Of a stretch of 64,000 nucleotides of DNA, positions 10,119 to 50,597 are shown piece after piece. Numbering within the stretch: position 1 is the first letter of the stretch; every line of letters begins with the position of its first letter. The notes below the pieces were generated by a model. The model ran no database searches. It saw only the letters and a program-made list of their open reading frames with translations, and was not told the origin of the DNA. The position numbers were made by a program, and so were the translations under genes. This DNA is from an uncultured Erythrobacter sp. (GTDB lineage Bacteria; Pseudomonadota; Alphaproteobacteria; Sphingomonadales; Sphingomonadaceae): NCBI GenBank assembly GCA_913055155.1, contig CAJXJR010000010.1, positions 62,001 to 126,000 of the forward strand, in the 5' to 3' direction.

Positions 10119-11285
10119 ATGAGCGAAGCCTGGAACGAGCTGATGGCGGTTTGGCGGGGCGATACCGTGCCTGGCCGCGAATACAGCGAAAACTGCGGCA
10201 AGGTCGTCGGCTACCTGTGCGACAACCTGCCCGAAGAACTGCTGATCGCGGCAGACATTTTGCCCATCCGCGTGCGCGGTACCGGCAGCCTGGATCTGCC
10301 GCTGGTGAAGCAGTTTCTCGATCCCAAGCGAAATTCGCGCGTGATCTCCCCGCAATTCGTACCCCCGCTGGCAGAGGCCCTGATGGGCGAAACCGGCGAT
10401 TACATGGACCGCGTCGTGATCCCGCACACCCGCAAGGCGGTGCAGGAACTAAACGGCCTGATCGCCAAGCTGCGCCGGGACAATCCCGAGCTCAACGTGC
10501 CGAGGGTATGGTTCCTCGACCGCGCCTATGGCCCCGATTCCGCCGCCTCGCGCTTCAACCGCAACCAGCTGGCGCTGTTCCGTTCACAGGTGGAGGAGTG
10601 GACCGGCGAAAAGCTGTCTGACGAAAAGATCTCCGCTGCCATTGCACTCACCAACGAGGCGCGCGCGTTGCTGCGCGAATTCAACGCCTGGCGGCAGGAA
10701 CCGGGCAGCCCGGTGACCGGGTACGATGCCGTCGCCATCATGGGCTGTTCGATGATCATGCCCAAGGCCCGCTTCGTCGAACTGCTGCGCGACGTACTGG
10801 CGAACAAGCCTGACCTGCCCGCGCAAGACGGCAGGAAGCGCCTGTTCGTTGGCGGTAGCCCGTTCGACCACGCCGGTGCCTACGAGGTGCTGGAAAAACA
10901 CGGTGCCGTCGTCGTGGCGGAAGACCACTGCTGGGGTGCACGCTGCGGCGATTTCGCCGTCAGCGAGGATGGAGACCCGTTCGAGATGCTGGCCATGCGC
11001 TATCACGAGAAACCCGCCTGCTCGATCGCCCTGCCGCTGGAACGCACGGTGAAGCTGTCGACGGACCGCGCGCTGGCGTCGGGCGCTGACGGCGCGGTGT
11101 TTCTCGTTCAGCCGGGGGACCAGCTGCAATTGTGGGAGACGCCAGACGAGGTGGCCGTGCTGGAAAAAGCGGGCATGCCCGTGCTGCACCTGCACGCCTT
11201 TCCCTACTCGGGCGACTGCAAGCCGGAGATGGAGGAAAAGATCGCGAGCTTCATAACCTCGCTGGCAAGCGAGGGGAGGTCGTGA
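10119..11285 (+). CDS. 2-hydroxyacyl-CoA dehydratase / benzoyl-CoA reductase family, subunit A (copy 1)
   Basis: A 388-residue member of the HgdB/BcrB fold family, whose known members are oxygen-sensitive [4Fe-4S] dehydratases or reductases of anaerobes. Two family cysteines remain: Cys34 in YLCDNLPEELL and Cys271 in AEDHCWGARC. The middle position, usually a Cys-Asp after a VVxPHT-like strand, is Arg-Lys here (PHTRKAVQE, 103-111). Its partner subunit starts one base after its stop. No ATP-dependent activator (HgdC or BadFG type) is in the window, and the neighbours are oxygenases. It presumably works on a CoA thioester; a non-reductive lyase, hydratase or isomerase role is inference. Confidence 0.85.
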   Translation: MSEAWNELMAVWRGDTVPGREYSENCGKVVGYLCDNLPEELLIAADILPIRVRGTGSLDLPLVKQFLDPKRNSRVISPQFVPPLAEALMGETGDYMDRVVIPHTRKAVQELNGLIAKLRRDNPELNVPRVWFLDRAYGPDSAASRFNRNQLALFRSQVEEWTGEKLSDEKISAAIALTNEARALLREFNAWRQEPGSPVTGYDAVAIMGCSMIMPKARFVELLRDVLANKPDLPAQDGRKRLFVGGSPFDHAGAYEVLEKHGAVVVAEDHCWGARCGDFAVSEDGDPFEMLAMRYHEKPACSIALPLERTVKLSTDRALASGADGAVFLVQPGDQLQLWETPDEVAVLEKAGMPVLHLHAFPYSGDCKPEMEEKIASFITSLASEGRS

Positions 11286-11286
11286 C

Positions 11287-12513
11287 ATGACAGACAAGAA
11301 CGATCCCCTGCGGCTGCAAACTGCCAATGACGTGCGCGCCTACCAGCGCCAATGGCTGGCCGACGCCCGCTCCAGAGCCGAGGCAGGAGAACCCTTTGCC
11401 ATCTGCTCCAGCGACGAGTTCGAGGAGATATTCTCGCTGCTCGACGTACCTGTCCTGGTGATCAACTACTGGAACTACCTCACCATCAAGCAGGGCGCGG
11501 CCAAGCACTACAACGATGTGCTGGAAGCGCGCGGCTATCCCGGGCCGCACTTCGTGGCGCTGGGACTTGCCACTGCCATCGACCCGGAGAAAGCCCCCTG
11601 GGGCGGACTGCCCAAGCCCTCCATCATCGTTGGCTCCACCCGTACCGAATACGAAATGCGCGTGGGCGAGCTGTGGGCGCGCGAGATGGACTGCGAATTC
11701 TACGTGATGGATTTCAACATGCAGTCGCCGTACAAAAAAATCCTGCCCGAAGGCTGGTGGAACCGCACCGCGGACGACTGGGAAGACCTGGTCGATGCCG
11801 ACCGGCTGCAATACCGCATCGAGCAGAATTACAACCTCATCGCACACCTCGAAAAGAAATTCGGGCGCACGTTCAGCCATGCCGATTTCATCCGCTCGGC
11901 AGAGCTGGAAAACGAGCAGATGGAATACTGGGAGAAGGCTCACCGCCTGATTGCCCGCAACAGCCCCTGCCCCGTGTCCTTGCGCGACCAGTTGGCCATG
12001 TACCAGCCGATGTGGCACCGCGGCACCGAATGGGGGCGCGACATCTTCCGCCAGTATTACGAGGAAGTGAAGCAGCGCGTGGCCGATGGACAAGGCGCCT
12101 ATCCAGTTGAAAAGAAGCGCATCCTGTACTGGTCGATGGCCGAGGAACCGGCCTTCCACGGCTATCTGAGAGAAACCTACGGCGCGGTGCTGGTAGGCAA
12201 CAATTACTCGGTGGTGCCGCGCTACTACGTGCGTCATTTCGATCCGGCAGAACCCATGCGCGCCATGGCCAGCCGGCACCTGTTCCTGTTCGGCTTCAAC
12301 GACAACCTGATGGTGGAAACCGCGAAGGATCACATGGCCGACGGCATCATCGTGATCGCCCCGCAGACCGACGACATTCCCTGCGATTCCCGTCGCATGG
12401 CAGAGGAAGCGGGCATCCCCTTCCTGGAGTTGCCGACCACACGCGACAATGAGGCCAACCGCGCGGCGATCGACCGTTTCATGACCGAACGACTGGAGGC
12501 GGAAAAGCTATGA
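11287..12513 (+). CDS. 2-hydroxyacyl-CoA dehydratase family, subunit B (copy 1)
   Basis: A 408-residue partner of the gene before it, with GAGGGGAGG upstream of the ATG. It keeps the family's first cysteine (Cys40, AICSSDEFEEIF), but the late ligand position usually written EDxCxG reads GNNYSVVPRYY. Conserved blocks shared with the other two B subunits are APWGGLPKPS, GSTRTEYE and RDQLAMYQPMWHRGTEWG, probably the CoA and active-site region. The stop overlaps the P450 start at 12510. The A and B subunits differ enough to suggest a heterodimer. Confidence 0.83.
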   Translation: MTDKNDPLRLQTANDVRAYQRQWLADARSRAEAGEPFAICSSDEFEEIFSLLDVPVLVINYWNYLTIKQGAAKHYNDVLEARGYPGPHFVALGLATAIDPEKAPWGGLPKPSIIVGSTRTEYEMRVGELWAREMDCEFYVMDFNMQSPYKKILPEGWWNRTADDWEDLVDADRLQYRIEQNYNLIAHLEKKFGRTFSHADFIRSAELENEQMEYWEKAHRLIARNSPCPVSLRDQLAMYQPMWHRGTEWGRDIFRQYYEEVKQRVADGQGAYPVEKKRILYWSMAEEPAFHGYLRETYGAVLVGNNYSVVPRYYVRHFDPAEPMRAMASRHLFLFGFNDNLMVETAKDHMADGIIVIAPQTDDIPCDSRRMAEEAGIPFLELPTTRDNEANRAAIDRFMTERLEAEKL

Positions 12514-13673: not shown

Positions 13674-13681
13674 GACGCGCC

Positions 13682-17666: not shown

Positions 17667-18476
17667 TCAATCGACCACCACGGTAATGTCCGCCCGGCGG
17701 CGCGAGGTTTCCTCCAGCCCGTCGGCATATTCCGTGTCGGAGACTTCCGCATTACCATAGGCGTGCGTTTCGATTCGGTCTTCGGGAATGCCCATGCGCA
17801 GCAGGGTTGTGACGATGCCGTCTACCCGTTCCTGCGCCACTTCAAGCCGCTCTGCCAGCGTCACGCCGCTGATCACTTCAGGCTCTGTAGCCGCCCAGCC
17901 GGTGACGATCACCTTGCTGACATTATCGGCCCCAACCTGGCGGTAGTAGTAGATCGCCTGGTCGAGCGCATAGTCGCTCAGGTTGAAGGTCATGAAGGCG
18001 CTGTCGAAATCGAACGTCGGACTAAAGGTCATCGTCCGGTAGGGCGGATCGGGCAGATCGCGTTCGACGAAGCCGGGCATGACGTAACGTTCCGAGAACA
18101 GCGGTGGACGGCTGGTATACCCTTCGGCCATCAGGCTGCGGCGCGGGCACTCGCGATCGTACAGGATCGAGGTACGCACCGGGCCTAGCTGGATGCCGCC
18201 GCAGGTGTCCTCGGCACCTTCCTTGATGTCGCCCTCCACCAGCACGCCATACGCAAAATCGGGCTTGCTCCAGCTGTCGTTCACGTCGTAGCGGATGCCC
18301 GTCTCTGGATCGTCCACCAGCCAGCAGCCGGTGCGGCGCCCGTGATGGTCGGGATTGCTCTCGTGATAATTGGTATCGCGATAGATCGGGCAGGCCACGA
18401 AGCGCACATCCTGCGCCGTGGCCGTGGTGGCAACACACAGCGCCAGCGCGCCGCCCATGATGCGCAGCGCGATCAC
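17667..18476 (-). CDS. Secreted OmpA-like protein of the cytochrome cassette (copy 1)
   Basis: A 269-residue exported protein with a signal peptide ending near TATAQ. The N-terminal half is a domain I do not recognise, with conserved cysteines in CPIYRD, GCWL, CGG and ECPR. The C-terminal half, from about residue 140, resembles the OmpA peptidoglycan-binding domain: VIVTGWAATEP, then AERLEVAQERVDGIVTTLL, then a final SRRRADITV. The start is GTG overlapping the cytochrome stop (GTGA). Three paralogues follow the same rule at 22762, 28490 and 50604. A wall-anchored partner of the cytochrome is the likeliest role, by inference. Confidence 0.78.
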   Translation of the reverse strand: MIALRIMGGALALCVATTATAQDVRFVACPIYRDTNYHESNPDHHGRRTGCWLVDDPETGIRYDVNDSWSKPDFAYGVLVEGDIKEGAEDTCGGIQLGPVRTSILYDRECPRRSLMAEGYTSRPPLFSERYVMPGFVERDLPDPPYRTMTFSPTFDFDSAFMTFNLSDYALDQAIYYYRQVGADNVSKVIVTGWAATEPEVISGVTLAERLEVAQERVDGIVTTLLRMGIPEDRIETHAYGNAEVSDTEYADGLEETSRRRADITVVVD

Positions 18477-19996
18477 AGCGCGGTCAACAGGTTGATCATG
18501 TCCTGCCTTTCTTGCGGGGTATACTGGATGTTGTACCGACGGTCGTAGAAATCGACGAGGCCGGGGATGTCGGCGGCAATGCCGTTGTGGAACAGCGGTT
18601 CGCGCGCGGCCATGGCACGCATCTGCTGGGTGGTGATCTTGCCGACGTCGAGGCAGCGCCCCGTGGTGAGCGCATAGCCCGGATCGCTCGTCAGGATCTC
18701 GCGCCCATAGTGCGGATGCGGCAATCGGCCGGTGCAGGTGATGCGGAACAGCGGCAGGTGCGGCATCGGATCAGCAAAGGGCTGGTTGCTGGTGCCCAGA
18801 TCGATCTGCCCCGGCGCCACATCGATGCCGGTACGGCTCATGTTATGGCAGAACTGGCAGGTGTTGCGCGCCGGATTGCCGAAGCCCAGCGGCTGGTTGA
18901 TGCCCGCGCTGTCGTTCACCAGAAAGGATCGCGTGCGCCACAGGTGCAGTCCGCGCACCACGGATTCGCGGAAGGCCCGTGTTTCGGGCGGCAGGGCGGC
19001 CATTTCCTCCTCGCTCATCTCGGCCCAGGCGTCGAATTCGCTCCAGACCGGGCTGGCGAAAATCCCCAGCAGGCCCGCCTCCGAGCGCTGCAACAGCTCG
19101 GCACCGCCCTCGGCTACCTCGTCGAGCGCGATATCGTCGCCGATGGTCTGCTGCGCGGCATAAACGCGGGATTCGAAATCGGCGATCTGGGCGCGCTCGG
19201 CGTCGGTCAGGTCGCGCAGCATTTCCAGGTGGCTCGCTGCCGCGTCGCGCATCTGCAACGACAGCGACTGCGCACGGCGGTCGGACATCAGGTTGCCCGA
19301 CATCGGCTCACCCGTTTCCGGGTCCAGCTCCATCGCGAGCCCCGATTTCGGATCGTAGTCGAAACCGACAGCGAGAATGTACTTCAGGTTCGCGACCGGG
19401 CGCGGACGACGGTAGACCGAAACCGTCGGTTCCTCGGCATCGAGACCATAGGCCCTTCCCGTATTGCACCCCCAGGGATCGCGCACGACCTCTATGGTAA
19501 AGTCGGTCTCGATCGGATTGCCTTGAAGATCGCGCGGTGGCCAGGGACGCTCGATGCGAAACAGCCCGTGATCCAGCAGCAGCGAATGCGATGCCCGCTC
19601 GCCCTGCGGCATGGTGGGGCAATTTGATCCGTCCCACGCCGCAAACAGCGGATCGGTGCCGCCGGTGGCTTCCCATCGCTCCTGCGCGGTACGGGGAGTC
19701 AGGCTCATGGCGTCGTGCGGCTGATGGCAGGTCACGCACGCGCGGCCGTTGGGACCGATCGGCTCGAAGAAGGCATGGCCTACGGTATCCACCGGGCCGC
19801 CTTCCACCAGAACGCGCAGCGCGCCTGCTGCGTTGGGATAGTCGCGCACCTCGGGAAAGACTTCTCCCGAACCTGCCGTCCACCAGTATTCCTCGTCGAC
19901 CTGCGCCTGCGCCATGCCGACCGTAACCGCCAGCGCTGTCGCCGACGCCAGGGCCGCCAGTCTCGGCAAGCGTAACCGACTCGCTGCCATCTTCAT
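18473..19996 (-). CDS. Periplasmic diheme cytochrome c, peroxidase/MauG-like (copy 1)
   Basis: A 507-residue exported protein; the signal peptide runs to about VGMAQA. It has two heme-c motifs, CVTCHQP near residue 115 and CQFCHNM near residue 375, and the C-terminal pattern PLFHNG...LVDFYDRRYNIQYT characteristic of the diheme cytochrome c peroxidase/MauG superfamily. It is longer than ordinary CcpA enzymes (about 330), closer to RoxA-like diheme oxygenases, though I cannot claim that activity. The start at 19996 has GGAGAGG upstream. It is coupled to the OmpA-like gene by a four-base overlap. Electron acceptor, peroxidase and oxygenase roles are all open. Confidence 0.82.
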   Translation of the reverse strand: MKMAASRLRLPRLAALASATALAVTVGMAQAQVDEEYWWTAGSGEVFPEVRDYPNAAGALRVLVEGGPVDTVGHAFFEPIGPNGRACVTCHQPHDAMSLTPRTAQERWEATGGTDPLFAAWDGSNCPTMPQGERASHSLLLDHGLFRIERPWPPRDLQGNPIETDFTIEVVRDPWGCNTGRAYGLDAEEPTVSVYRRPRPVANLKYILAVGFDYDPKSGLAMELDPETGEPMSGNLMSDRRAQSLSLQMRDAAASHLEMLRDLTDAERAQIADFESRVYAAQQTIGDDIALDEVAEGGAELLQRSEAGLLGIFASPVWSEFDAWAEMSEEEMAALPPETRAFRESVVRGLHLWRTRSFLVNDSAGINQPLGFGNPARNTCQFCHNMSRTGIDVAPGQIDLGTSNQPFADPMPHLPLFRITCTGRLPHPHYGREILTSDPGYALTTGRCLDVGKITTQQMRAMAAREPLFHNGIAADIPGLVDFYDRRYNIQYTPQERQDMINLLTAL

Positions 19997-20073
19997 AAAG
20001 ACCTCTCCTTGCGCCGGTAACGGTCCGCCATGGCTCGGCACGACTGCGTCCCAGGGCCCGCATCACGCAAATG

Positions 20074-22761: not shown

Positions 22762-23535
22762 TCAGAATTCCACCTTGATCTCCACCCGGCGCTGCGACTG
22801 GCCGGGAATGGTATCGGCATCGGACAGGTCCATCGGCTGCGACCCCGTTTCCCACCGGGTGACGATCTCCATGCCTGGCAACAGGCGGCTGAGGGTGAGC
22901 GCGACGTTTTCGGCCCGGGCCTGCGCGATTTCCGGGCTTTCGGCCAATTCGACACCGCTGACGGTGATGGGATCTGTTGCCGCATAGCCGGTTACCACCA
23001 GGCGGCGCGGCTGTGCCGCCTCGATCCAGTAGGCTGCCTGCTGAACGATGAAGTCGCTGTACTGGTAAACCAGAAAATCGCGGTCGAACTCGAAGAATGC
23101 ATAGAAGGTGCGCTCTTCGAACGGTCCTTCGGGTGCCTCCGGCCGCCTGGCCAGCGGGGTTATGTACCGCTCGGGGGCGATGAAGAATCGGCCTGGATAG
23201 CCTTCTGCCGGGATCATGTGCCGGGTGCAGTCGATATCCAGCAGTCGCGATGTCCGCACAGGCTCCAGCACCGGCGCACCGCAAGCATCCTCGCCCTCTT
23301 CCGACACGCGGCCTTCCACGAAGATCGCATAGTCCCAGTTGGGCTTGTAGGGCGAATGGCTGACATCCCATTGCTGCCCACTGGCGGCATCGGTGGTGAG
23401 CCAGCAGCCCGATTTTCGCCCCTGGTCCGTATCGCGATAGACCGGGCACGAGACGAAGGAGACGAGTTCACCCGCCTCCTGTGCCTGGGCGGACAGCGGC
23501 GCGGTGAAGGCGAGCAGGGTCAGGAGCTTCTTCAT
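22762..23535 (-). CDS. Secreted OmpA-like protein of the cytochrome cassette (copy 2)
   Basis: A 257-residue exported protein with a clear signal peptide (MKKLLTLLAFTAPLSAQA). It shows the same unknown N-terminal domain as its paralogues, CPVYRDTDQGRKSGCWL and later CGAPVLEPVRTS, and an OmpA-like C-terminal half with VVTGYAATDP, SPEIAQARAENVAL and QRRVEIKV. The ATG overlaps the stop of the diheme cytochrome by four bases. It is the last gene of the unit P450 (25083), cytochrome (23532), OmpA-like. Confidence 0.78.
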   Translation of the reverse strand: MKKLLTLLAFTAPLSAQAQEAGELVSFVSCPVYRDTDQGRKSGCWLTTDAASGQQWDVSHSPYKPNWDYAIFVEGRVSEEGEDACGAPVLEPVRTSRLLDIDCTRHMIPAEGYPGRFFIAPERYITPLARRPEAPEGPFEERTFYAFFEFDRDFLVYQYSDFIVQQAAYWIEAAQPRRLVVTGYAATDPITVSGVELAESPEIAQARAENVALTLSRLLPGMEIVTRWETGSQPMDLSDADTIPGQSQRRVEIKVEF

Positions 23536-39169: not shown

Positions 39170-40324
39170 ATGACTGCGCTCGAAACCATGCAGGCAGCCT
39201 ATCGCAACCGCGATAACCTGGCACGCGAGCACCATGCCACAGGCGGCAAGGTGGCCGCCTACATGTGCGACAACGTGCCGGCCGAAATGCTGCGTGCGGC
39301 GGGGGTGATGCCTTATCGCCTCAGCGGCGACGCCAGCCGCAGCCGCAAGGAAATCAGTGCGTTGATCGGATCGGTCCACACCACCCGGCTGGTAGGGCTG
39401 GAGTTCATGGACGCGACAACCGCGCGGCTGGTCGCCGGCGATCTCGATTTCGTCGACTACCTGGTCGTGCCGCATAATCGCAAGCAGGTGCAGGTACTGG
39501 GCGTGATCCTGGAATCAATCCGGGTGAACAAGCCCGAGGTGGCGCTGCCCGATTTCCATTACCTCGACCGTACCTATGTCCGCGATTTCCTGACCAGCGG
39601 ATACAACCGGAAGTGCCTGATGCAGCTGCGCGCCAAGCTGGAGGAATGGACCGGCGCGGCAATTTCGGCAGATGCCATGCGCGCCGCAATTGCCGAGGCT
39701 GCGGAAACGCGCCGCCTGCTGCGCGAGCTGAATACGCTGCGCCAGGGCGATGCGCCGCGGGTTTCCGGCGTGGAAGCACTGGAGATCTACGGCGCCTCAC
39801 ATTTCATGGAGCCGCGCACATTCCAGGCCGCCCTTGCGGAATTCATTATTGAGGCGAGGGCGCGGGATCCCTTGCCAGGCGTGCGCATCTACCTTGGCGG
39901 CAGCCCGCTGGATCACACTGCCTTCTACGAGATCGTCGAGAGCGCGGGCGCGGTGATCGTGGCCGAAGACCATTGCTGGGGCGCGCGTTGCGCCGAGCTG
40001 GATATCGACGGGCATGACGACCCGTTCGAGGCATTGGCCGCGCGTTTTGTCGCCCAACCGGCGTGCTCCTTGCGGGCCTCGATCGACGATATCACCCGCG
40101 CCAACGTCGCCCGCGCGGCTGGATCCGGTGCGCAGGGCGCGATCTATAACGTGATGCAGGGCGATACGCCGCAAATGTGGGAAGCACCCTCGCAGCTCGA
40201 TGCCTTGCGAGATCGCGGCATGCCTTGCCTGCACCTGAAACGCGTGCCCTATCGTATCGAAGACCCAGCACCGGTTGCAGAGCAGGTATCCGCCTTTGTT
40301 GCAGACCTTGGGGAGGCAAACTGA
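39170..40324 (+). CDS. 2-hydroxyacyl-CoA dehydratase / benzoyl-CoA reductase family, subunit A (copy 2)
   Basis: A 384-residue paralogue of the gene at 10119. It retains Cys33 (YMCDNVPAEML) and Cys269 (AEDHCWGARC), while the middle position is Arg104 (PHNRKQVQVL) as in copy 1. The blocks YLGGSPLDHTAFYEIVE and the closing MQGDTPQMWEAPSQLD also match copy 1. The ATG has GGGAG upstream. Its stop overlaps the B-subunit start by one base. No activator gene is near. It should bind a CoA ester; the reaction is unknown. Confidence 0.85.
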   Translation: MTALETMQAAYRNRDNLAREHHATGGKVAAYMCDNVPAEMLRAAGVMPYRLSGDASRSRKEISALIGSVHTTRLVGLEFMDATTARLVAGDLDFVDYLVVPHNRKQVQVLGVILESIRVNKPEVALPDFHYLDRTYVRDFLTSGYNRKCLMQLRAKLEEWTGAAISADAMRAAIAEAAETRRLLRELNTLRQGDAPRVSGVEALEIYGASHFMEPRTFQAALAEFIIEARARDPLPGVRIYLGGSPLDHTAFYEIVESAGAVIVAEDHCWGARCAELDIDGHDDPFEALAARFVAQPACSLRASIDDITRANVARAAGSGAQGAIYNVMQGDTPQMWEAPSQLDALRDRGMPCLHLKRVPYRIEDPAPVAEQVSAFVADLGEAN

Positions 40325-41571
40325 TGGCCGACTGGATACCGCAAACCGAACGCCTTCCTATCGTCGAACGCGTACGCGCCGACCAGAAGGAATGGCTCGC
40401 CGGACTGAAAGCGGGGGTGGAGACAGGCGGCCGCTTCGCCATCTCTGCCAGCGACGAGTTCGAGGAGATATTCAACCTTTTCGACATTCCCGTGGTGGTG
40501 GTGAACTACTGGCACAACCTGGTACTGGCGACCGGTGAAGGCGATCACTTCGCCGAAGTGCTAAACAGCCGCGGATATGACGTAGACGCCATTACCATGG
40601 GGCCGCTCGGCTATGCCGCCGCGCTGGAACCGGAAAAGGCACCATGGGGCGGCCTGCCCAAGCCCACGCTGTTCCTGGGTTCCACACGCGACGAGAACGA
40701 GTTCCACTTCATGGAGCTGTGGGCCAAGCAGCTGGACTGCCCGTTCATCCCGCTCGATTACAATCTGGCCGGCTTCTACAAGACGCTGCCAACCGACGAC
40801 TGGTGGAACCACATCCGCCGCGATTGGCCCAGGTACATCGACAGCGACCAACTGGACCTGCGCGTGGCGCAATCGCTGGACGTCATCGCCCACCTGGAAC
40901 GTGAGACAGGCAAGACCATCACTACGGCAGATATCGCCCGCTCGCTGGACATGTGCAACGAACAGATCGACCTGTTCATGGAAGGCCTGCGCCTGATTGG
41001 CGAGGCCGAACGCTGCCCGGTGACGATCCGCGACCAGCTCGCGCTCTATGTCACCCTCTGGCATCGCGGCACGCCCAAAGGGCTGGACTATGCTCGCAGC
41101 TTCCGCGACCAGGTGGCCGAGCGTGTGGAGAAAGGCGTGCAGGGCTACGAGCGCGAGGACGTGCGCATCCTGTACTGGACGGCCATGCCCGAGCCGCGCT
41201 GGCACCGTTACCTGAACGAGCAATACGGCGCGGTCTTCGTGGCCAACCAGTACTCGGTTACGCCCGAATTCTATGCTCGCGACTACGATCCGGCAGACCC
41301 GCTGCGGGCGCTGGCCGGGCGCAGCCTGTTCCTGCTGGCCCAGCTCAACAATCCGCAATGGATGCTGGAAGTGGCCGAGTTCTACAAGGTCGATGCGATT
41401 GTCGGCTTCGAGTACCCGTGGCAGGTGGAAACGCCCTTCGCCAAGGCAGCGAAAGAGGCAGGCCTACCCTACTTCAATTCGCCCGTTCTGGCCGATAGTG
41501 ACAAGATCCGCGCCAAGCTGGATGCCTGGATGCAGGACGAGGTGCTGCCTGCGGTCACCGCGAAACGCTGA
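40324..41571 (+). CDS. 2-hydroxyacyl-CoA dehydratase family, subunit B (copy 2)
   Basis: A 415-residue partner of subunit A, paralogous to the gene at 11287. The first ligand position is serine (AISASDEFEEIF, Ser41) where copy 1 has Cys40, and the late one is VANQYSVTPEFY, with tyrosine in place of cysteine. Conserved blocks are APWGGLPKPT, GSTRDENEF and RDQLALYVTLWHRGTPKG. Loss of both positions makes a [4Fe-4S] cluster in this subunit unlikely. It converges with the CoA ligase gene across a hairpin. Confidence 0.83.
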   Translation: MADWIPQTERLPIVERVRADQKEWLAGLKAGVETGGRFAISASDEFEEIFNLFDIPVVVVNYWHNLVLATGEGDHFAEVLNSRGYDVDAITMGPLGYAAALEPEKAPWGGLPKPTLFLGSTRDENEFHFMELWAKQLDCPFIPLDYNLAGFYKTLPTDDWWNHIRRDWPRYIDSDQLDLRVAQSLDVIAHLERETGKTITTADIARSLDMCNEQIDLFMEGLRLIGEAERCPVTIRDQLALYVTLWHRGTPKGLDYARSFRDQVAERVEKGVQGYEREDVRILYWTAMPEPRWHRYLNEQYGAVFVANQYSVTPEFYARDYDPADPLRALAGRSLFLLAQLNNPQWMLEVAEFYKVDAIVGFEYPWQVETPFAKAAKEAGLPYFNSPVLADSDKIRAKLDAWMQDEVLPAVTAKR

Positions 41572-41585
41572 ACGACATGATGGAG

Positions 41586-41625
41586 GCCTGCCTCGGAGAA
41601 ACCGGCCTCAGCAGCTGAGGCAGGC
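41586..41625. terminator. Hairpin between convergent genes
   Basis: GCCTGCCTC at 41586-41594 pairs with GAGGCAGGC at 41617-41625 between the dehydratase operon (stop 41571) and the convergent CoA ligase (stop 41608). The loop of 22 bases contains a shorter inverted repeat. There is no T run; bidirectional termination is inferred from position. Confidence 0.4.
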
Positions 41626-43470
41626 GTCATCTTCCACGTCATCATAGATGCGGGCAACGATATCGGCACGCAGCTTCACCACGGCACGCTGGTTGATGTA
41701 CTGCTTGTCGTTGATTTCACCGGCCTCGAGGCGCGGCGGATCTGCCAGCAGGACCAGCTTGCCGATGCGGCGACTGGAGGCGGTATTGCGAGCGTTGAAT
41801 TCGCCAAGCAGGCCCAGCACCCGTTCTCGCAGGGCAGCATCGGGCACGATCACCCCGTCGCGCACCTCGACGCCTTCGGGCACCTTGCGCAGCCAGACCA
41901 TCGCCCCGACAAACGGCTTGCGATCACCGGTGATCACCGCGTCCCAGAACTGCGGGCCGAAAGCTTCGAGCAGGTCCGCCCGGATCTGGCCTACGTTGAC
42001 CCAGGTGCCGGTCTCCAGCTTGAAATCCTCGCTCACGCGGCCGTCGTAGGCAACGCCGGCCGATGGATTGTCCTTGTCTATCAGGCGGAGCACGTCGCCG
42101 GTCTTGAAGAAGCCATCCTCGTCGAAGGCTTCGGCATTGATTGCCGGTTCATCGAGATAGCCGGGAAAGATATTCGGTCCGCGCAGGCGCACCTCGAAGC
42201 GATCTTCGCCAAGGTCGAGCAGCTTCAGCTCGCACCCCGGCAACGGCACCCCGCAGTTGGCACTGTTGTTCACCGGCCAGTGCGCCAGCGTCGCGCCCGG
42301 AGAAGCTTCGGTCATGGCATAGGCGGTGAGCGCAGGGACCCGCTTGCCCGTGGCCGCTTCCGCATGGCTTTCAAGCTTGTCGAAGACAGCTTGCGACAGG
42401 CCTGCACCGCCATAGCGGATGATCGTCAGCCTTTCGAAAAAGGCGTCGCGCAGTTCCTTGTCGTTGTCCATCGCATCGGCCAGCATGCCGAGCCCGGCGG
42501 GTACGCAGTTATAGAAAGTCGGGCGAATCTCCTTCACTGCGTCCACCGTCTTCTGGAACATCGGCCCAGGCACCGGCTTGCCGTCGTCGATATACAGCGT
42601 CGCGGCATCGGCGATGGACTCGGCCAAGACCACGTTGCCGCCAAAGGTGTGGTGCCAGGGCAACCAGTCCAGGATGATGCCCGGCTCGTTCGCGTCGCGC
42701 ATGCGCACGGCCATCATCTGTTCGAGATTGGCGGTCATCATTCGGTGGGTGTTGGGCACGGCCTTGGGAATGCCGGTGGAGCCGGAGGTGAAGAGCAGCT
42801 TGCCCACCCAGTCCGGCTCGATCGCGGCGAAAGCCTCCTCGACCGCTTCGGTCGGCTCGACTGCGGTCAGCTCGGCAAAGGGCGTTGCGCCGTCGAATGC
42901 AGCGACCGAAACCAGCTCTGCCCCAGCAAGATCGAGTTCGGCCAGCGCTGCTGCCATCGAGGGTCCGTCCTGCACGAACAGCAGCTTGGGCGCGGCCTTG
43001 GCGAAGGTGCCGTGCAGGCGTTCGCGCGCTTCGGGGAACATGGCGTAGGCCAGCGAAATAGGTGCAACAGCCGCACCAACCGTCTGCGCGCCGAACATCA
43101 TCAGCGCCTGGTCGATACTGTTCGGGCCGATGATGGCTACCACGTCATGCGGGCCGATTCCGCGATCGAGCAGCGCCTGCGCGATCGAGTTCACCTTGGC
43201 CAGCGCCTCGCCATAAGTGATCCTGCGCCAATCCTCGTTGGTAAAGTGGTCGGCCAGTGCCACCCGGTCAGGATGGCCGGCAGCGCTGCGGCGAAGGTAA
43301 TCCACCGTGGTGCGCGTCAATTCGGGAAGCGGGCGCGGCGAAGTCATCAGGTAGCCACCCTCGATCGGCGTCAGCTCGGCTTGCGGTTCCAGAAATTGCT
43401 GCACGCCGAACGGTGGCACCTCGCGCTTCACCAGACCTTCGCGATCGTCCCTGGTATTGTCGCCTGTCAC
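41608..43470 (-). CDS. Acyl/aryl-CoA synthetase (feruloyl-CoA synthetase-like)
   Basis: A 620-residue AMP-forming CoA ligase of the ANL superfamily. The P-loop is LLFTSGSTGIPKAVPNTHRMM, followed by DWLPWHHTFGG, the adenine site AYAMTEASPG and the hinge region YDGRVSEDFKLETGTWVNVG, the last typical of the feruloyl-CoA synthetase branch. The catalytic lysine usual in the C-terminal domain is likely in KQYINQRAV. The start is a GTG at 43470 with GGGAG nearby. It is the last gene of the operon beginning at 48102 and a paralogue of the ligase at 61846. It should activate an aromatic or branched carboxylic acid. Confidence 0.92.
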   Translation of the reverse strand: MTGDNTRDDREGLVKREVPPFGVQQFLEPQAELTPIEGGYLMTSPRPLPELTRTTVDYLRRSAAGHPDRVALADHFTNEDWRRITYGEALAKVNSIAQALLDRGIGPHDVVAIIGPNSIDQALMMFGAQTVGAAVAPISLAYAMFPEARERLHGTFAKAAPKLLFVQDGPSMAAALAELDLAGAELVSVAAFDGATPFAELTAVEPTEAVEEAFAAIEPDWVGKLLFTSGSTGIPKAVPNTHRMMTANLEQMMAVRMRDANEPGIILDWLPWHHTFGGNVVLAESIADAATLYIDDGKPVPGPMFQKTVDAVKEIRPTFYNCVPAGLGMLADAMDNDKELRDAFFERLTIIRYGGAGLSQAVFDKLESHAEAATGKRVPALTAYAMTEASPGATLAHWPVNNSANCGVPLPGCELKLLDLGEDRFEVRLRGPNIFPGYLDEPAINAEAFDEDGFFKTGDVLRLIDKDNPSAGVAYDGRVSEDFKLETGTWVNVGQIRADLLEAFGPQFWDAVITGDRKPFVGAMVWLRKVPEGVEVRDGVIVPDAALRERVLGLLGEFNARNTASSRRIGKLVLLADPPRLEAGEINDKQYINQRAVVKLRADIVARIYDDVEDDACLSC

Positions 43471-43492
43471 GCTTACTGCTCCCTCATTCCCT

Positions 43493-44722
43493 TTACCGTT
43501 GCTTGCCGAAGACGCCGTCTGCTGCAAGCGCATCGAACATTGCGTCATCCATGCCCAGCACGCTCTTGCACACCTCGCGGTTGTCGTGCCCCATCAGCGG
43601 GGCGTGAACCATGCGCTGCATGCCTTCTCCCATGCCTATAGGCGTGCGCTGGTGGCCGAAAGTGCCGATGACCGGATGCGTGATCTCTTCCAGAAATCCG
43701 CGATGCTTAAGTTGCGGATCGTGGTCGACAATTTCGGGCACGGTGCGCACGGTTCCTGCGGCAACGCCTGCGCCCTGAAGCAATTCCATAGAAGCATCGG
43801 CATCCTTGTCGAGCGTCCACTCGGCGATGATTGCGTCCAGCGCATCCTCGTTCCGCTTGCGCGCGGCAAGCGTCGCGAACTTCGCATCCCCGGCAAGCTC
43901 GGGCCTCCCGATTGCCTTGCACAGCGCCGCGAATTCCGGTTCGTTCCACACCTCGATGGCGATCCAGCGATCTTCACCGCGGGCGGGATAGATATTGTGT
44001 GGGGCGGCGTCGGGATGCCGATTCCCGGTGCGGAAATTCTCCGGCTTGCCAGACAACGCGTCCGAGACGAGCGGCCACATCTGCTGCACCAGTACTTCCT
44101 GCATGGCGCCGTCGATCCAGCACCCCTCGCCCGTACGTTCGCGCCGGTCGAGCGCGCCGAGAATGCCGGTAACGAGAAAGAACGGCAGCACGCTGTCGCC
44201 ATAGGTCAGGCCCGGCAACACCTCGCGCCCGTCGGGATGGCCGCTGGCGGCAATGCGTCCCGAACGGGCTGCGCCGGTCGCATCAACACCGGGAAACGAG
44301 GACATCGGGCCGCTCTGGCCGAAGATGCTGCCACTGGCGAGGATGATGCCGGGGTTGAGCTCGCGCAGGCGGTCGTAGCCAAAACCCATGCGCGTGATCG
44401 TGCCGGGAGAGAAATTCTCCACCACTACATCTGCCTCGCGGATCAGGTCCTCGATGAACTTGCGGCCGCGCGAGTCCTTCAGTTCGGGCGTCAGGCTCTT
44501 CTTTGAGGTCGCGATCTGCGCGAACCACTGCTTGTTGTCGAACGAGGCCGGATCGTCGTTCTTCACGATATCACGCGACCGCTCCATCGAGGGGCGGCTG
44601 TAGCTTTCGATCTTCCAGACCTCGGCACCGAAATCGCCCAGCAGCTTCGTCGTCGTGTTGCCAACGATGGCCCAGGAGAAATCGACGATACGGATGCCGG
44701 CAAGAGGGCGGGTGTCGCTCAT
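43493..44722 (-). CDS. CaiB/BaiF-type III CoA-transferase
   Basis: A 409-residue protein with the interlocked-ring fold of class III CoA-transferases: IRIVDFSWAIVGNTTTKLLGDFGAEVWKIE at the start and GQSGPMSSFPGVDATGAARSG carrying the likely catalytic Asp147. It follows a shorter CaiB-like gene with a four-base overlap, so the two may form a heteromer, as known for BbsE and BbsF. It would move CoA between acids without ATP, allowing activation of the pathway substrate. Confidence 0.9.
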   Translation of the reverse strand: MSDTRPLAGIRIVDFSWAIVGNTTTKLLGDFGAEVWKIESYSRPSMERSRDIVKNDDPASFDNKQWFAQIATSKKSLTPELKDSRGRKFIEDLIREADVVVENFSPGTITRMGFGYDRLRELNPGIILASGSIFGQSGPMSSFPGVDATGAARSGRIAASGHPDGREVLPGLTYGDSVLPFFLVTGILGALDRRERTGEGCWIDGAMQEVLVQQMWPLVSDALSGKPENFRTGNRHPDAAPHNIYPARGEDRWIAIEVWNEPEFAALCKAIGRPELAGDAKFATLAARKRNEDALDAIIAEWTLDKDADASMELLQGAGVAAGTVRTVPEIVDHDPQLKHRGFLEEITHPVIGTFGHQRTPIGMGEGMQRMVHAPLMGHDNREVCKSVLGMDDAMFDALAADGVFGKQR

Positions 44723-45687
44723 GCCTCGTCCCTCGCAATGGCCTTGATGAAATAGCCGGGCTGCTTGCCGCTCTCACCCTGGGTAAAAAACCCCCGCGCG
44801 GCCAGTTGCACGTCTTCGGCCACGTCCTGCGGGCTGGAAACCGACATCAGCCGGATCTTGCGCGCCCGCGTCTTGGCGATGGCTTCCTCCTCGGTCATCG
44901 ATGCGAGGAAGGCCGCCACGGTATCCATGTCGTGCGAGGGCGCGGGCCGCTTGCCGGTTTCCTCCTCGATCCAGTCGTCCATCTGCTCGGCAGGCGGAGT
45001 GCCCGGCTTGCCTTCCATGTAGAAGGCCAACGCGTCCTTCAACGGCCACAGCACGCGGCTCGGGCCGTTGCCCATGTCGATGGCCTGGCCGTTACGGCCG
45101 GGTACCGTGTCGCCCAGCATGTGCTTCACCAACGCCACGGTGGCGCGCCCGGCGCCCATTTCCTGCGCCGCGATATCGACCAGTTGCCCGCGCCCCGTCT
45201 TCCTGCGCGCAAATTCGGCCAGCATCGCACCGGCCGCGCCCGCACCGCAGGCATGAAAGAAGTTGGCATCGCCGGGCTCCCGCACCGGCGAGCCGTCCTT
45301 CTCACCCATCTGGTAGAGCGTGCCCGCCAGTGCCGCTGCCACCAGTTCGCCACCCTTGTAGCGGGCATAGGGACCGGACTGGCCGAAGGGCGTGATCGAA
45401 ACCTGGATCAGGCCGGGATTGACCTGCGACAGTGCTTCGTAGCCAAGCCCCATCGCGGCCATATCGCCCGGCATGAAGGATTCCACCAGAATATCGGCCT
45501 TTGCCACCTGATCACGCAAGCTGTCGGGATCGGCCGACAACGCTTCACGCTCCAAGCGCGTCACACGGGCACCAAGCGATGCCAGAAACCGCGCACAGTC
45601 ACGTGCAATCGGCGTGGAGACGTCGATCACGTGAAGGTGCGAGAGCAGATCCTGCGCAACCGAATGCGATGCTGGCTGATCCGTCAT
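44719..45687 (-). CDS. Short CaiB/BaiF-like CoA-transferase subunit
   Basis: A 322-residue member of the same family, about 70-80 residues shorter than usual. The first domain is recognisable (HVIDVSTPIARDCARFLASLGARV, GLIQVSITPFGQSGPYARYKG), but the catalytic aspartate position is Glu114 (GGELVAAALAG). It starts inside the P450 stop (ATGA) and ends inside the start of the full-length transferase, so all three are translationally coupled. A structural or asymmetric subunit of a heteromer is a good possibility. Confidence 0.82.
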   Translation of the reverse strand: MTDQPASHSVAQDLLSHLHVIDVSTPIARDCARFLASLGARVTRLEREALSADPDSLRDQVAKADILVESFMPGDMAAMGLGYEALSQVNPGLIQVSITPFGQSGPYARYKGGELVAAALAGTLYQMGEKDGSPVREPGDANFFHACGAGAAGAMLAEFARRKTGRGQLVDIAAQEMGAGRATVALVKHMLGDTVPGRNGQAIDMGNGPSRVLWPLKDALAFYMEGKPGTPPAEQMDDWIEEETGKRPAPSHDMDTVAAFLASMTEEEAIAKTRARKIRLMSVSSPQDVAEDVQLAARGFFTQGESGKQPGYFIKAIARDEA

Positions 45688-46947: not shown

Positions 46948-48102
46948 TCAGGCTTCCGCCCCTTCAAGCAAGTGTTCCATACCGATCGAAGCGAGCACCT
47001 CGCGCGTGTCCGCTCCCGCACCATGTGCCGGCTGCGGATCGACCACGGGTGTATCCGACAAGTGCAGCGGAGAGCCGATGTGGCGAATGGTAGAACCGTT
47101 GGGTCCGGCCATTTCGGCCACCATGCCGCGCGCACGGTTGTGCGGGTCGGCCAGCGCTTCATCCAGTTGATAGACCAACGCATGCTGCGTGCCGGCCGCG
47201 CCCAGGATATCCAGCCATTCGCTGGCATCGCGCGTCGCGAACACCGCGTCGAACTCGGCCCGCATCTGCTCCCACAAGGACTTGTCGTGCTGCTTGTCGA
47301 TGTATTCCGGCTTGCCCAGCGCCTCGCAGAAAGCCTTCCAGTAGCGAGGCTCCATGTCGCTGCTGGCGATGAACCGGCCGTCGCGCGTTTTCCAGATGCC
47401 GCCATGCATGCCGTGAAACCCGCGCGGGGGAACCGGACGAATATCGGCGCTGCGCGACATGACCATGCCCAGCAGCGTCATTGCGCTGTCGGTCATCGCC
47501 GCATCCACCACTTGTCCGCGTCCGGTGGTGCCGCGTGCAGTCAGTGCCGCCATGATGGCAATCGCGGCATTGCTGCCGGTCAGCAAGTCAACGAACGGCA
47601 CGCCGGCGAACATCGGCTTTTCGGTCGTTCCAAGACGATCGAGCAGGCCTGAGATCGCAAGGGCGATTGGCTCATGCCCGGGTCGCTGGGCATAGGGGCC
47701 GGTCTGCCCGCAGGCGGAAACAGAGCAATAGACCAGCTTCGGGTTGCGAGCCATCATCGCCTCTGCACCAAAGCCGATATCGGCGATCACGCCCGGACGG
47801 AAATCCTCGCACAGCACATCTGCAGTGTCGATCAGCTTGTATGCTGCTTCGCGGTGCTCCGGGTCCGCAAGATCAAGCCGCACGTTCTTCTTGCCGCGCA
47901 GGAACACTTGCGCCGCATCGTAACGAGCGCGTTCTTCGTCGGAGAGTTCGCTTAGGCGGAACATAGCGTCGAACTTGGCCTGCTCGCGCGCGTTCTCTAT
48001 GCGAATGACCTCGGCGCCAAGGTCAGCCAGCAGCCACGTAGCATACGGTCCAGGCAGGAATCTGCCAAAGTCGACAACACGTATGCCCTCAAGCGGTGCC
48101 AT
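46948..48102 (-). CDS. CaiB/BaiF-type CoA-transferase or racemase
   Basis: A 384-residue class III CoA-transferase-fold protein (IRVVDFGRFLPGPYATWLLADLGAEVIRIE). The residue at the catalytic aspartate position is Glu144 in PGHEPIALAISG; the preceding His143 is a feature of the alpha-methylacyl-CoA racemase branch. It may therefore be a racemase-like enzyme that inverts a methyl-branched acyl-CoA, or a transferase using glutamate. It heads a minus-strand operon with P450, two further transferases and a CoA ligase. Confidence 0.86.
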   Translation of the reverse strand: MAPLEGIRVVDFGRFLPGPYATWLLADLGAEVIRIENAREQAKFDAMFRLSELSDEERARYDAAQVFLRGKKNVRLDLADPEHREAAYKLIDTADVLCEDFRPGVIADIGFGAEAMMARNPKLVYCSVSACGQTGPYAQRPGHEPIALAISGLLDRLGTTEKPMFAGVPFVDLLTGSNAAIAIMAALTARGTTGRGQVVDAAMTDSAMTLLGMVMSRSADIRPVPPRGFHGMHGGIWKTRDGRFIASSDMEPRYWKAFCEALGKPEYIDKQHDKSLWEQMRAEFDAVFATRDASEWLDILGAAGTQHALVYQLDEALADPHNRARGMVAEMAGPNGSTIRHIGSPLHLSDTPVVDPQPAHGAGADTREVLASIGMEHLLEGAEA

Positions 48103-48165
48103 GCCTTCATTCTCTCCGTACGCTTGCCTTTTGCGCGAATCTGCGCTTGTGGTTTTTGGCTAGAG

Positions 48166-48181: not shown

Positions 48182-48213
48182 TCGAATCGAATGCAAGGTT
48201 TGAGAGGACGATT

Positions 48214-49305
48214 ATGGCTGGCAAGAGCACCGCGATGGAGGAAGCCCGCAAGCTGGCCGCTGCTGGAAAGCGCGTGGTGGCGATCATCGGCTGGCGCGTA
48301 CCGACCGAACCTGTCCGCGCTGCAGGTCTCCGTCCCGTTCACATCGCGCCCGATCTTTCGCAGCCCACACCGGACGCCGACGAACTGCTTTCCGCCGAAG
48401 CGAAGCCCCCGCTGCGCGCCCTTATCCAGACGCTGGTGAGCGGCGACCTCGACTTTGCCGAACTCATCGTCTTCGCCCCGCCCTTCGCACCGGTATCGGT
48501 GCAACTGGAAGACCTTCGACGCATGGGCCTGCTGCGTGAGAGCGTACCGCCGACCTATTACTTCGAGACGATGATGCTGCGTGGGGAACGCCAGCGCCAA
48601 TTCGCAATCGAACGCACGCGAGCGTTCGCCCGCCGCCTCGCCGCGCTGGATGGCCAGCCGATTCCGGGTAAAGCGCTGGAAGCGGAAGTTGTCGCTTCCA
48701 ACGCAGTGCGTCGCAGTGCCCTGGCCCTGCTCGAAACCCGCGGCACCACCAGCGCCCCCAAGGGCAGCGCGGTGATGGATGCTCTGGGCGCGGGCGACTG
48801 GCTTGCCCCGGCCGACCATGTGGCCACCATCGAAGGGCTTGGCGCACCGACAGGCAACGGCCCACGCCTGGTGCTTGTCAGCAGCAGCGTGCTGGGTAAT
48901 TCACGCGTGCATGGCCTGGTGGAAGAAGCGGGCGCGAACATCGTGGCCGAGGATGACATCTATGGCTCGCATTTCGCCACCGAAGAGATTGCCGAAGGCA
49001 CCGGCGACCCGCTGGAAGCCATCGGCAGCTTCATCCACGACAACCAGCCGATGCAGCGCACATCTCCACCTGAGCTGCGCCGCGCCTGGTATCACGAACA
49101 GCTGCGCCGCGCCGATGTCGACGGCGTGGTATTCTACGCCGAAGACCCGATCTGGGGGTGGGACGTACCCGCCATGCGCGCCGCTGCCGCAGCAGCAGGC
49201 AAACCCACCACCACATTGCTGTTGGACGTGCAATTGAAGCCGGAAAAGGCGCTGGCGCAGCTATCCGAATTTGTCCGATCGCTGGCTGGGGAGACCAACG
49301 CATGA
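48214..49305 (+). CDS. 2-hydroxyacyl-CoA dehydratase family, subunit A (copy 3), cysteine-free
   Basis: A 363-residue paralogue of the A subunits at 10119 and 39170 and clearly in frame throughout. Reading the protein from end to end I find no cysteine. The first ligand position is Trp27 (IIGWRVPTEPV) and the late one Ile249 (VAEDDIYGSH), while the surrounding framework EEAGANIVAED is kept. No [4Fe-4S] cluster can be bound by this subunit in the family manner. GAGAGGA precedes the ATG at 48214. The stop overlaps the B-subunit start. The activity must differ from radical dehydration, or the pair must be structural or regulatory. Confidence 0.82.
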   Translation: MAGKSTAMEEARKLAAAGKRVVAIIGWRVPTEPVRAAGLRPVHIAPDLSQPTPDADELLSAEAKPPLRALIQTLVSGDLDFAELIVFAPPFAPVSVQLEDLRRMGLLRESVPPTYYFETMMLRGERQRQFAIERTRAFARRLAALDGQPIPGKALEAEVVASNAVRRSALALLETRGTTSAPKGSAVMDALGAGDWLAPADHVATIEGLGAPTGNGPRLVLVSSSVLGNSRVHGLVEEAGANIVAEDDIYGSHFATEEIAEGTGDPLEAIGSFIHDNQPMQRTSPPELRRAWYHEQLRRADVDGVVFYAEDPIWGWDVPAMRAAAAAAGKPTTTLLLDVQLKPEKALAQLSEFVRSLAGETNA

Positions 49306-50597
49306 GCACCACCGAAGCCAAGTCCGCCGCAGCTCGCAAGAAGCCGCGTTTCGAGCTGGAATGCTCCCCGCAAATCCGCGGCTATCAAAAGCAATGGTAT
49401 GCCGACCTGCGCCAGCGGGTGGTCGAAGGCGGCGAGAAGTTCGCCCTGACCGAAGCCATGACGCCGCACGAGATTCTGGAAGCGATGGATATTCCCTTCG
49501 TTACCAACGAATGGTGGTCGGGCATCGTCACCGCGCACAGGCAGTCGCCCTATTACTTCGACCTGCTGGAGGAGAAGGGCTTTTCGCCCGGCCTTGAACG
49601 CTATTGTGCACTGTCGCTGGCGGGCGCGCTGGACAAGGGGGCCCATCCCGAACCCGCGTGGGGCGGGCTGCCGCAACCCTCGTTGTTCGTACAGGGCATG
49701 CCCGAGGCGACGCGCGTTGAGTTCGGGGAGCGAAACGCAATCGAACACGGCGTGCCCTTCATCTCGTTGTCGCCACCGCAGACCGGCCAGCCGATGCCGC
49801 TGCGCTGGTGGGAAGTTGCCCGTCACGGCTGGGAGGCGCTGTGCCCTACCTGGCAGCTGGATTACATGACCGACAAGTTCTGGGACATGATCCACCAGCT
49901 GGAGGACATTTTCGGTGCCGGGTTCGACATGGACCGATTGCGCGAGGTGAACGGCATCTCGAACCAGCAGCAGGCCGTGTTCGAGGAAGTGCGCGACCTC
50001 ATCATCACTGCGCCAAAGGCTCCTGTGGCACTGTCCGAAATGCTGGGCAATGTCATGGCGATCCAGTGGCAGCGCGGCACGCCCTGGGCGCTGGAAGCGG
50101 CGATCCAGCTGCGCGACGAGATCAAGGCGCGCGTCGATGCGGAAAAGTGGACCTGCCCGAACGAGAAGTATCGTTTCGCATGGGTCGGCCCGGGCCTGTG
50201 GCAGAACACCGCGTTCTATCGCATGTTCGAGGACAGCCACGGCGCCGTCTTCGTGCAGTCCATGTACATGTCGCTCGCGATCGACGGTTATCCACGATAC
50301 GGCGCAGACCCCGTACGCGCGCTGGCCAGCCGCTATTGCGCTTTCGGCATCGGCACGCTCGACTGGCAGGCGCACGAGGCGCTGACGCATCGCTGCGACG
50401 GGATCGTGACGGTCAAATCCAGCGTCTCCGGCCTGCTGCGCAAGGTGCTGGCTGACGCCGACCTGCCGCTGCTGGTGCTCGATATCGACCTGGTCGATGC
50501 GCGCACCTGGGACGAAAAAGCCGTGCAGGAAGCCATGGGCCGCTTTATCGAGGACGAAGTCGAACCGCGCCGCCAACGCCGACTGGCTGGGGTCTGA
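49302..50597 (+). CDS. 2-hydroxyacyl-CoA dehydratase family, subunit B (copy 3)
   Basis: A 431-residue partner of the cysteine-free subunit, starting inside its stop (ATGA). It is the most divergent of the three B subunits: the first ligand position is threonine (FALTEAMTPHEIL, about Thr50) and the late one reads VQSMYMSLAIDG. The blocks EPAWGGLPQPS and MAIQWQRGTPW are still recognisable. Six cysteines exist but none is at the expected places. It converges with the OmpA-like gene at 50604, six bases away, without an obvious terminator. Confidence 0.8.
   Translation: MSTTEAKSAAARKKPRFELECSPQIRGYQKQWYADLRQRVVEGGEKFALTEAMTPHEILEAMDIPFVTNEWWSGIVTAHRQSPYYFDLLEEKGFSPGLERYCALSLAGALDKGAHPEPAWGGLPQPSLFVQGMPEATRVEFGERNAIEHGVPFISLSPPQTGQPMPLRWWEVARHGWEALCPTWQLDYMTDKFWDMIHQLEDIFGAGFDMDRLREVNGISNQQQAVFEEVRDLIITAPKAPVALSEMLGNVMAIQWQRGTPWALEAAIQLRDEIKARVDAEKWTCPNEKYRFAWVGPGLWQNTAFYRMFEDSHGAVFVQSMYMSLAIDGYPRYGADPVRALASRYCAFGIGTLDWQAHEALTHRCDGIVTVKSSVSGLLRKVLADADLPLLVLDIDLVDARTWDEKAVQEAMGRFIEDEVEPRRQRRLAGV

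Follow-up and report, generated by a model that had tools for sequence, protein, structure and literature searches.

The subject of this study is a 64,000-nt stretch of DNA (the window; C10:62001–126000) on C10, a 144-kb contig of an uncultured Erythrobacter genome (3.10 Mb, 21 contigs, completeness 100), and in particular its paired genes for proteins with the class I benzoyl-CoA reductase/2-hydroxyacyl-CoA dehydratase (BCR-I/HAD) fold. Known members of this fold need an ATP-driven activator, and oxygen destroys them. An earlier note on the window had placed three pairs, each encoding an A and a B subunit, at 10119–12513, 39170–41571 and 48214–50597. Six intact open reading frames (ORFs), each running from ATG to TGA, do lie there and make three coupled A/B pairs (Table 1); the ATG of B2 shares one base with the stop codon of A2.

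The fold given in that note was also borne out. Pfam HGD-D (PF06050) matched all six proteins above its curated cut-off (E 3.3e-19 to 7.3e-47), and in sequence the A side resembles HadC and BzdN, the B side HadB, BzdO and MbdO. AlphaFold2 models and Foldseek searches covered A1 and B1 of the six. The A1 model (mean predicted local distance difference test score, pLDDT, 89.2) had BzdN as its top PDB match (8s02_B, template modeling score 0.87), and the B1 model (mean pLDDT 87.7) had MbdO, BzdO and HadB. Identity with a known equivalog (HadB/C, BcrB/C, BzdN/O or DCCP) was rejected, all scores lying far under cut-off: the best window score was ≤100 bits with the BcrBC/BzdNO models (cut-offs 421–487) and ≤98 bits with the double-cubane model NF040772 (cut-off 350). 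HGD-D gave ten matches in the whole genome, all on C10 (nine of them above cut-off), and these ten make up five pairs. The three copies counted previously are thus correct for the window and incomplete for the contig, on which pairs 4 and 5 lie outside the window.

Table 1. Paired genes on contig C10 and neighboring genes in the window (window positions unless prefixed C10)
Feature	Position	Strand	Description and evidence
A1	10119..11285	+	388 aa, BzdN/HadC-like; Pfam HGD-D E 7.3e-47
B1	11287..12513	+	408 aa, HadB/BzdO-like; Pfam HGD-D E 2.1e-30
A2	39170..40324	+	384 aa, A1 type; Pfam HGD-D E 6e-43
B2	40324..41571	+	415 aa; Pfam E 1.3e-21 (translation begun one codon earlier)
A3	48214..49305	+	363 aa; Pfam E 3.3e-19 (longer ORF from 48124)
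B3	49302..50597	+	431 aa; Pfam HGD-D E 1.5e-30
Pair 4	C10:33605..36110	+	
Pair 5	C10:17413..19571	-	
CapA-like (PGA_cap) protein	368..1510	+	PF09587 E 1.9e-61; NF038314 (MslH family) E 4.2e-26, 91 bits vs cut-off 700
AMP-dependent acyl-CoA synthetase (PRK12582 type)	41608..43548	-	NCBIfam E 5e-195, 649 bits vs cut-off 777
Type III (CaiB/Frc-like) CoA-transferase	43493..44722	-	NCBIfam below equivalog cut-offs; 71% identity to Alteromonas partner
Short second CaiB-family protein, forming a tandem with the gene above	44719..45687	-	ORF; 59% identity to Alteromonas counterpart
Third CaiB-family CoA-transferase, adjoining pair 3	46948..48102	-	NCBIfam below equivalog cut-offs

Metal and catalytic sites of the two subunits

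Ligand columns were read from MAFFT L-INS-i alignments with HadB, HadC, BzdN and MbdO. Taking the HadB cluster ligands to be C84, C117 and C346, numbers that agree with the printed chain, we found none of the three in B1, B2 or B3. In B3, C84 and C117 are replaced by Glu and C346 is deleted. The loss therefore goes beyond the late cysteine reported missing from the B subunits in the earlier note, which had proposed aligning the six proteins and scoring their ligands. Parts of the BzdNO study give C95, C128 and C380 as the corresponding BzdO ligands and show Y298 holding the thioester oxygen (PMC11971306). This tyrosine (HadB Y290) is kept in B1 (as Y307), B2 and B3. At the position of HadB Y86 (BzdO Y97), B1 has F89, B2 has M92 and B3 keeps Tyr; at that of the catalytic Glu, HadB E55, B1 has N60, B2 has N61 and B3 keeps Glu; and at that of S37, B1 and B2 have Ser and B3 has Ala.

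The cluster ligands of BzdN, given in parts of the same source, are C36, C73, C100, C263, C293 and C327 (PMC11971306). A1 keeps the distal three (C36, C263 and C293) as C34, C271 and C301 and has an extra invariant C276, while its proximal positions (C73, C100 and C327) are N72, R105 and D334. A2 is similar, with C33, C269, C274 and C299 kept and T71, R104 and D332 at the proximal positions. A3 has no cysteine anywhere. Accordingly, proximal ligands number 0/3 in each of the three proteins, and double-cubane cysteines 3/6 in A1 and A2 and 0/6 in A3. The replacement of the middle family cysteine by Arg in A1 and A2, noted previously, is real; it is part of a systematic rebuilding of the metal sites rather than one swap. 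In a clade made up of A1, A2, two Alteromonas proteins and one Chloroflexota protein (31–62% identity), all five members keep the distal cysteines, lack the proximal ones and share a fourth invariant Cys, any other Cys being common to at most two. The fourth Cys adjoins the Arg equivalent to BzdN R267, which contacts the distal cluster in the structure described in parts of PMC11971306. R53 and R267 are kept in 5/5, H330 in 2/5 and R290 in none (Lys in A1).

To place these changes in a wider family, a profile built from our five B subunits was run against 84,980 species genomes, and the best 79 loci of 325 related stretches were kept. They belong to Actinomycetota, sphingomonads, Alteromonas, Steroidobacteraceae and relatives, Caulobacterales, Chloroflexota and Bacillota, mostly aerobic as judged by taxonomy. 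A and B are fused into a single ORF in 18 of the 79 loci (A >80 bits, B >400 bits; for example L019, L023, L024, L033 and L045), and such fusions occur in both Cys-bearing and Cys-free groups. Counts for subunit A refer to 66 separately recovered domains, one of them truncated, with the A halves of the 18 fused ORFs left out. At the C327 position, 65 of the 66 have D/E and the remaining one His; at the C73 position, Cys never occurs and Asp is present in 49; the C100 position, where it is not Cys, is mostly Thr or Ser, and Arg in the A1/A2 clade. Two of the three proximal relay cysteines are hence gone from every domain and the third from 38, and no family A domain has a complete proximal set because the C327 and C73 positions are never Cys.

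Subunit B is more varied: among 87 family domains, 24 have all three ligands (Bacillota, some Chloroflexota, Alteromonas, a Caulobacteraceae metagenome-assembled genome (MAG) and our pair 5), 3 have two (our pair 4, Steroidobacter and a Caulobacterales MAG) and 60 have none. All 27 Cys-bearing domains carry an extra Cys at the HadB A87 position, three residues after C84, against 0/8 classical rows. The E55 position is Gln in 79/87 family domains, including 27/27 of the Cys-bearing ones, and Glu in 8/8 classical rows; the S37 position is Ala in 79/87 and Ser in 6/8, respectively. Y290 is conserved in 87/87 and Y86 in 82/87. Across 15 diverse B proteins, 22 positions are invariant, many of them marks of the branch, whose new invariants include W-G-G-L-P, W-H-R-G and R330.

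In a quick IQ-TREE analysis of 95 B rows (87 family and 8 classical) with the ligand columns removed, family and classical rows were split with 100% support in the Shimodaira–Hasegawa-like approximate likelihood ratio test (SH-aLRT). One truncated row, L101, was excluded from both the tree and the classical counts, and L096 is a false domain row. Our pairs fall into four deep clades, {1, 2}, {3}, {4} and {5}, all of which also contain relatives from Alteromonas, Chloroflexota, Steroidobacter or Caulobacterales, and the Cys state within the family requires at least three changes; the branches are long, and with them details are unsure and some joins may be false.

Activator genes

The earlier note had found no activator in the window and proposed a whole-genome search for HgdC/BadFG-type activators. 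That search gave no match in the complete genome (completeness 100) with either PF01869 (10/14 control genomes positive) or TIGR00241 (6/14 positive), and an activator encoded elsewhere in the source genome is rejected on these results. Of 50 carrier genomes (our own plus the genomes behind 49 of the 79 loci), 42 had no TIGR00241 match; among the eight positive ones, one is an Amycolatopsis and the other seven are Bacillota, largely Clostridia and presumably anaerobic. A small hidden Markov model built from four activator sequences found no activator among our gene calls of the 79 loci, and it recovered known activators, two of them outside its training set.

Position within a genome was compared in five genomes holding both kinds of pair. 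Four of six classical pairs lie within ~2 kb of an activator, three abutting it (G044 C15, G049 C38 and G027 C4) and one ~2 kb away (G032), versus none of five family pairs (G032, G044 C60, G047 C53, G049 C10 and G027 C2), all without an activator on the same contig or less than 500 kb away. The G044 pairs on C28 and C16 were left out of this classing. In the order of the window's host, 15 of 147 sampled genomes match the B profile: three of them, G000 and two others of its genus, score >570 bits, and the other twelve, presumed classical by score alone, score 74–146 bits. Activators were found in 12/12 of the low-scoring genomes and in 0/3 of those at family level.

These results bear on two alternatives. 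The pairs might be classical 2-hydroxyacyl-CoA dehydratases or benzoyl-CoA reductases served by an activator from elsewhere or by an unrecognized protein, a view that accords with the HadBC/BzdNO fold and pairing and with a CaiB partner resembling the HadA/FldA logic. However, both activator models are empty in the genome, the ligands are gone from B1–B3 and from the proximal site of A1–A3, and HadB E55 is not conserved across the branch, all of which makes this view very improbable. A second possibility is a non-redox (de)hydratase in which the Cys-bearing B members (our pairs 4 and 5, Clostridia and Paenibacillus) use one [4Fe-4S] cluster as a Lewis acid, like aconitase or TudS, the window pairs being derived, cluster-free versions with the same reaction. 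The 24 B domains with all three ligands, set beside A domains that never keep the whole relay set, fit this idea, as does the occurrence of Cys-bearing pairs in genomes in which no activator was matched (our own, Paenibacillus L044, Alteromonas G002 and the Caulobacteraceae MAG L025). But the extra Cys three residues after C84 in every Cys-bearing B could close the open site that such chemistry needs, and the catalytic Glu is Gln in the same 27 proteins. We regard the Lewis-acid enzyme as unlikely, while giving it some weight.

Gene neighborhood and distribution

Neighbors were counted in the 79 loci over ~10 kb per side where present (BLASTP, E 1e-15 over half of the query, our own crude gene calls). 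A CaiB/BaiF CoA-transferase occurs in 67/79 loci and lies <2 kb from B in 59 of the 73 loci where a B gene was called. A CapA-like protein is the second commonest of the counted neighbors (46/79), whereas P450 (12/79) and AMP ligase (5/79) are infrequent. The frequent coupling with CaiB, together with the loss of most known catalytic groups from the window pairs, could indicate non-catalytic acyl-CoA-binding partners, for example scaffolds or specificity subunits of the neighboring transferases. The 22 invariant positions described above, many of them branch marks, argue against such a role, as do five paralogous pairs in one island, each with relatives elsewhere; we consider it improbable.

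Four related pairs lie within ~15 kb in Alteromonas lipolytica, inside a gene cluster shared with C10. Over ~38 kb this cluster holds the four pairs and 18 more C10-homologous genes, 16 of these at 49–74% identity, among them four CaiB genes, two AMP ligases, an SDR, esterases, MFS and others. The acyl-CoA synthetase of the window shares 66% identity with the gene that adjoins the Alteromonas pairs, and the window pair proteins are 35–82% identical to their counterparts within the shared set. The loss of ligands and a scattered occurrence (family-level matches in 3/147 genomes of the order) might have suggested that the pairs derive from anaerobic enzymes that, once transferred to an aerobe, are decaying there. 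This idea is already contradicted by the six intact ORFs, by the identities just given and by the clade-wide conservation of the altered residues, and we find it scarcely credible.

The earlier note had described an oxygenase island around the pairs. Oxygenases do surround them locally, but a conserved oxygenase island is rejected: homologs of the window Rieske and extradiol proteins occur in 0/79 loci each, P450 occurs in the 12 loci counted above, and, in the comparison with 99 kb of the Alteromonas chromosome, the C10 P450 and Rieske ORFs are among the two best matches of no gene. The window oxygenases are a local addition. Two observations concern individual members. The Rieske-type oxygenase-like protein at 5794–6927 (+) has CPG instead of CxH as its first ligand motif, and its Rieske centre may have been lost; an ARAGORN call of tRNA-Arg at 1946–2043 (−) falls inside an intact P450-like ORF and is probably false.

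The domains shared between the two clusters include esterases (Abhydrolase_10, beta-lactamase-like and S15/CocE), an MBL fold, and MDMPI- and DSBA-like proteins. Together they suggest an ester- or lactone-bearing natural product as substrate, without fixing a compound. Because esterases, CaiB and AMP ligases are common to Alteromonas and C10, the conserved logic seems to be ester hydrolysis, loading of the acid onto CoA, and transformation of the CoA ester by the A/B pairs.

Several other features of the neighborhood were recorded. Tandems of a long and a short CaiB-family gene recur, in the window (Table 1) and at C10:44136–46516 (−) and C10:49829–52110 (−), and perhaps encode heterodimeric CoA-transferases. 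Besides the CapA-like (PGA_cap) protein of the window there are two more, at C10:21328–22524 (−) and C10:55884–57038 (+). The window protein weakly matches MslH, a metal-dependent lasso-peptide epimerase, and may be a carbon-acid epimerase of the pathway rather than serve capsule synthesis. A regulator cluster is found in 28 loci; its one scanned member is PaaX, which hints at an aryl-CoA inducer. Four paralogous two-gene units, all on the minus strand (17667–20041, 22762–25079, 28490–30777 and 50604–52891), each comprise a cytochrome-like protein with two CxxCH motifs and a smaller protein. Of their eight proteins, three were scanned and none matched Pfam; relatives (clusters 30 and 31) occur in four related loci.

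Proposed function and comparison with known systems

We think it likely that the window pairs and the two further pairs form a distinct branch of the BCR-I/HAD fold that has given up reductive chemistry driven by ATP (ketyl-radical or hydrogen-atom-transfer) and would act, without radicals or an activator, on CoA esters made by CaiB. The support for this proposal is sequence-based, consisting of the fold, the pairing, the missing activator, a broken proximal relay in every scored A, and B open-site ligands that are lost or joined by a fourth Cys. Such a new Cys joins three old ones in A1/A2 and in B of pair 5, and two in B of pair 4, which leads us to predict that the persisting sites (distal in A1/A2, and in B of pairs 4 and 5) are closed and structural, holding [4Fe-4S] or Zn, and not catalytic.

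In the mechanism that we propose, a CaiB-type transferase (or an AMP ligase) would load a carboxylic acid onto CoA, and the CoA ester would occupy the old A/B channel, where the invariant Tyr (BzdO Y298) sits. An acid/base or metal-assisted non-redox step, namely hydration/dehydration, isomerization or C-C cleavage, would then proceed in air without ATP or reductant, and several pairs could serve successive intermediates of one pathway. Since the pairs partner with CaiB transferases, we favor (de)hydration or isomerization over a lyase reaction, without a firm choice. Several related CoA intermediates had been suggested from the copy number, and the pairs do probably act together, because Alteromonas lipolytica keeps its four so close. 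The note's further suggestion of a new, oxygen-tolerant class stands as to a distinct branch without activator, relay set or, in the window, open-site ligands; the oxygen tolerance we infer.

Several points weigh against this proposal. The saturated four-Cys site is predicted from the alignments rather than from coordinates, and the iron content, activity, oxygen tolerance, reaction and substrate considered here are likewise proposals. Pairs 4 and 5, with two or three B ligands kept, could hold a working cluster, and the C100 position is still Cys in 28/66 A domains. The Cys at the A87 position also occurs in a few ligand-free B proteins, our B3 included. The second thioester-binding Tyr is lost in B1 and B2 and the catalytic Glu is kept in B3, so the window pairs are atypical of the branch. 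The Amycolatopsis and Bacillota carriers have an activator elsewhere in their genomes. Lastly, two of the six classical pairs (G049 C59 and G047 C67) have no activator on their contig, which makes distance to an activator a weak criterion alone.

With somewhat less assurance, we lean towards a wider proposal: a large, unnamed class of CoA-ester enzymes would have arisen from the most oxygen-sensitive radical dehydratase fold by dismantling of its metal sites. The relay would have given way to carboxylates (D/E in place of C73 and C327, perhaps as a mononuclear metal site), the catalytic cluster would have been closed by a fourth Cys or deleted, and the activator dropped. This class would include a previously unseen "distal-only" cubane of the A1/A2 type and run a common CaiB-dependent catabolic module in aerobes and anaerobes. 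If our reading is right, the label "2-hydroxyacyl-CoA dehydratase family protein", which suggests a radical enzyme that is sensitive to oxygen and depends on an activator, misleads for the whole branch. It is the annotation of three of seven plasmid records with a relative, the others being unnamed; a search of plasmid DNA with 16 kb of the window gave no match. A common catabolic module, in which a CaiB transferase and an A/B pair are frequently joined by a CapA-like protein and a transporter, would then await its substrate, and the superfamily would offer a natural series from double cubane through single cubane to no cluster, making the step from radical to non-radical chemistry directly testable.

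Evolution of the superfamily by loss of sub-clusters has been described for DCCP, BzdNO, HAD and TudS in sections of PMC11971306, and those sections name no cluster-free or activator-free branch. Nor did the titles and abstract openings listed in searches of the open-access literature describe one, and the branch is apparently undescribed. Among solved structures, A1 is most closely related in sequence and fold to BzdNO, the class I benzoyl-CoA reductase of Aromatoleum (8S02; covered in parts of PMC11971306). Like BzdNO, the window pairs are A/B heterodimers, and A1/A2 keep BzdN C36, C263, C293, R53 and R267. They differ in having N or T, R and D in place of C73, C100 and C327, in not keeping both R290 and H330 near the distal cluster, in lacking the three ligands in B1–B3, with N, N and E at the BzdO E65 (HadB E55) position, and in a genome without a BzdPQ-type activator. 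On the B side, the best PDB match by profile and fold is the 3-methylbenzoyl-CoA reductase MbdNO (9G87 and 9GAI); its structure is also known as MbdONPQ (9GAI), and MbdO has all three B ligands. HadBC, the (R)-2-hydroxyisocaproyl-CoA dehydratase (3O3M), shares the fold and the pairing of a HadC-like A with a HadB-like B. Its partner HadA is a CaiB-family CoA-transferase, and FldA follows the same logic. Unlike HadBC, the window pairs have no HadI activator and have lost HadB C84, C117 and C346 and the HadC cluster ligands. The double-cubane-cluster protein DCCP (6ENO) has the superfamily fold and a six-Cys double-cubane site, of which A1/A2 apparently retain the distal half; the window proteins are instead heterodimers without a reductase partner, with half of the double-cubane ligands gone in A1/A2 and all in A3. 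The desulfidase TudS differs in being a single domain that keeps one cluster, and we know of no CoA ester or CaiB partner for it. The likeness lies in its having moved, as a member of the same superfamily, out of radical chemistry, as parts of PMC11971306 describe.

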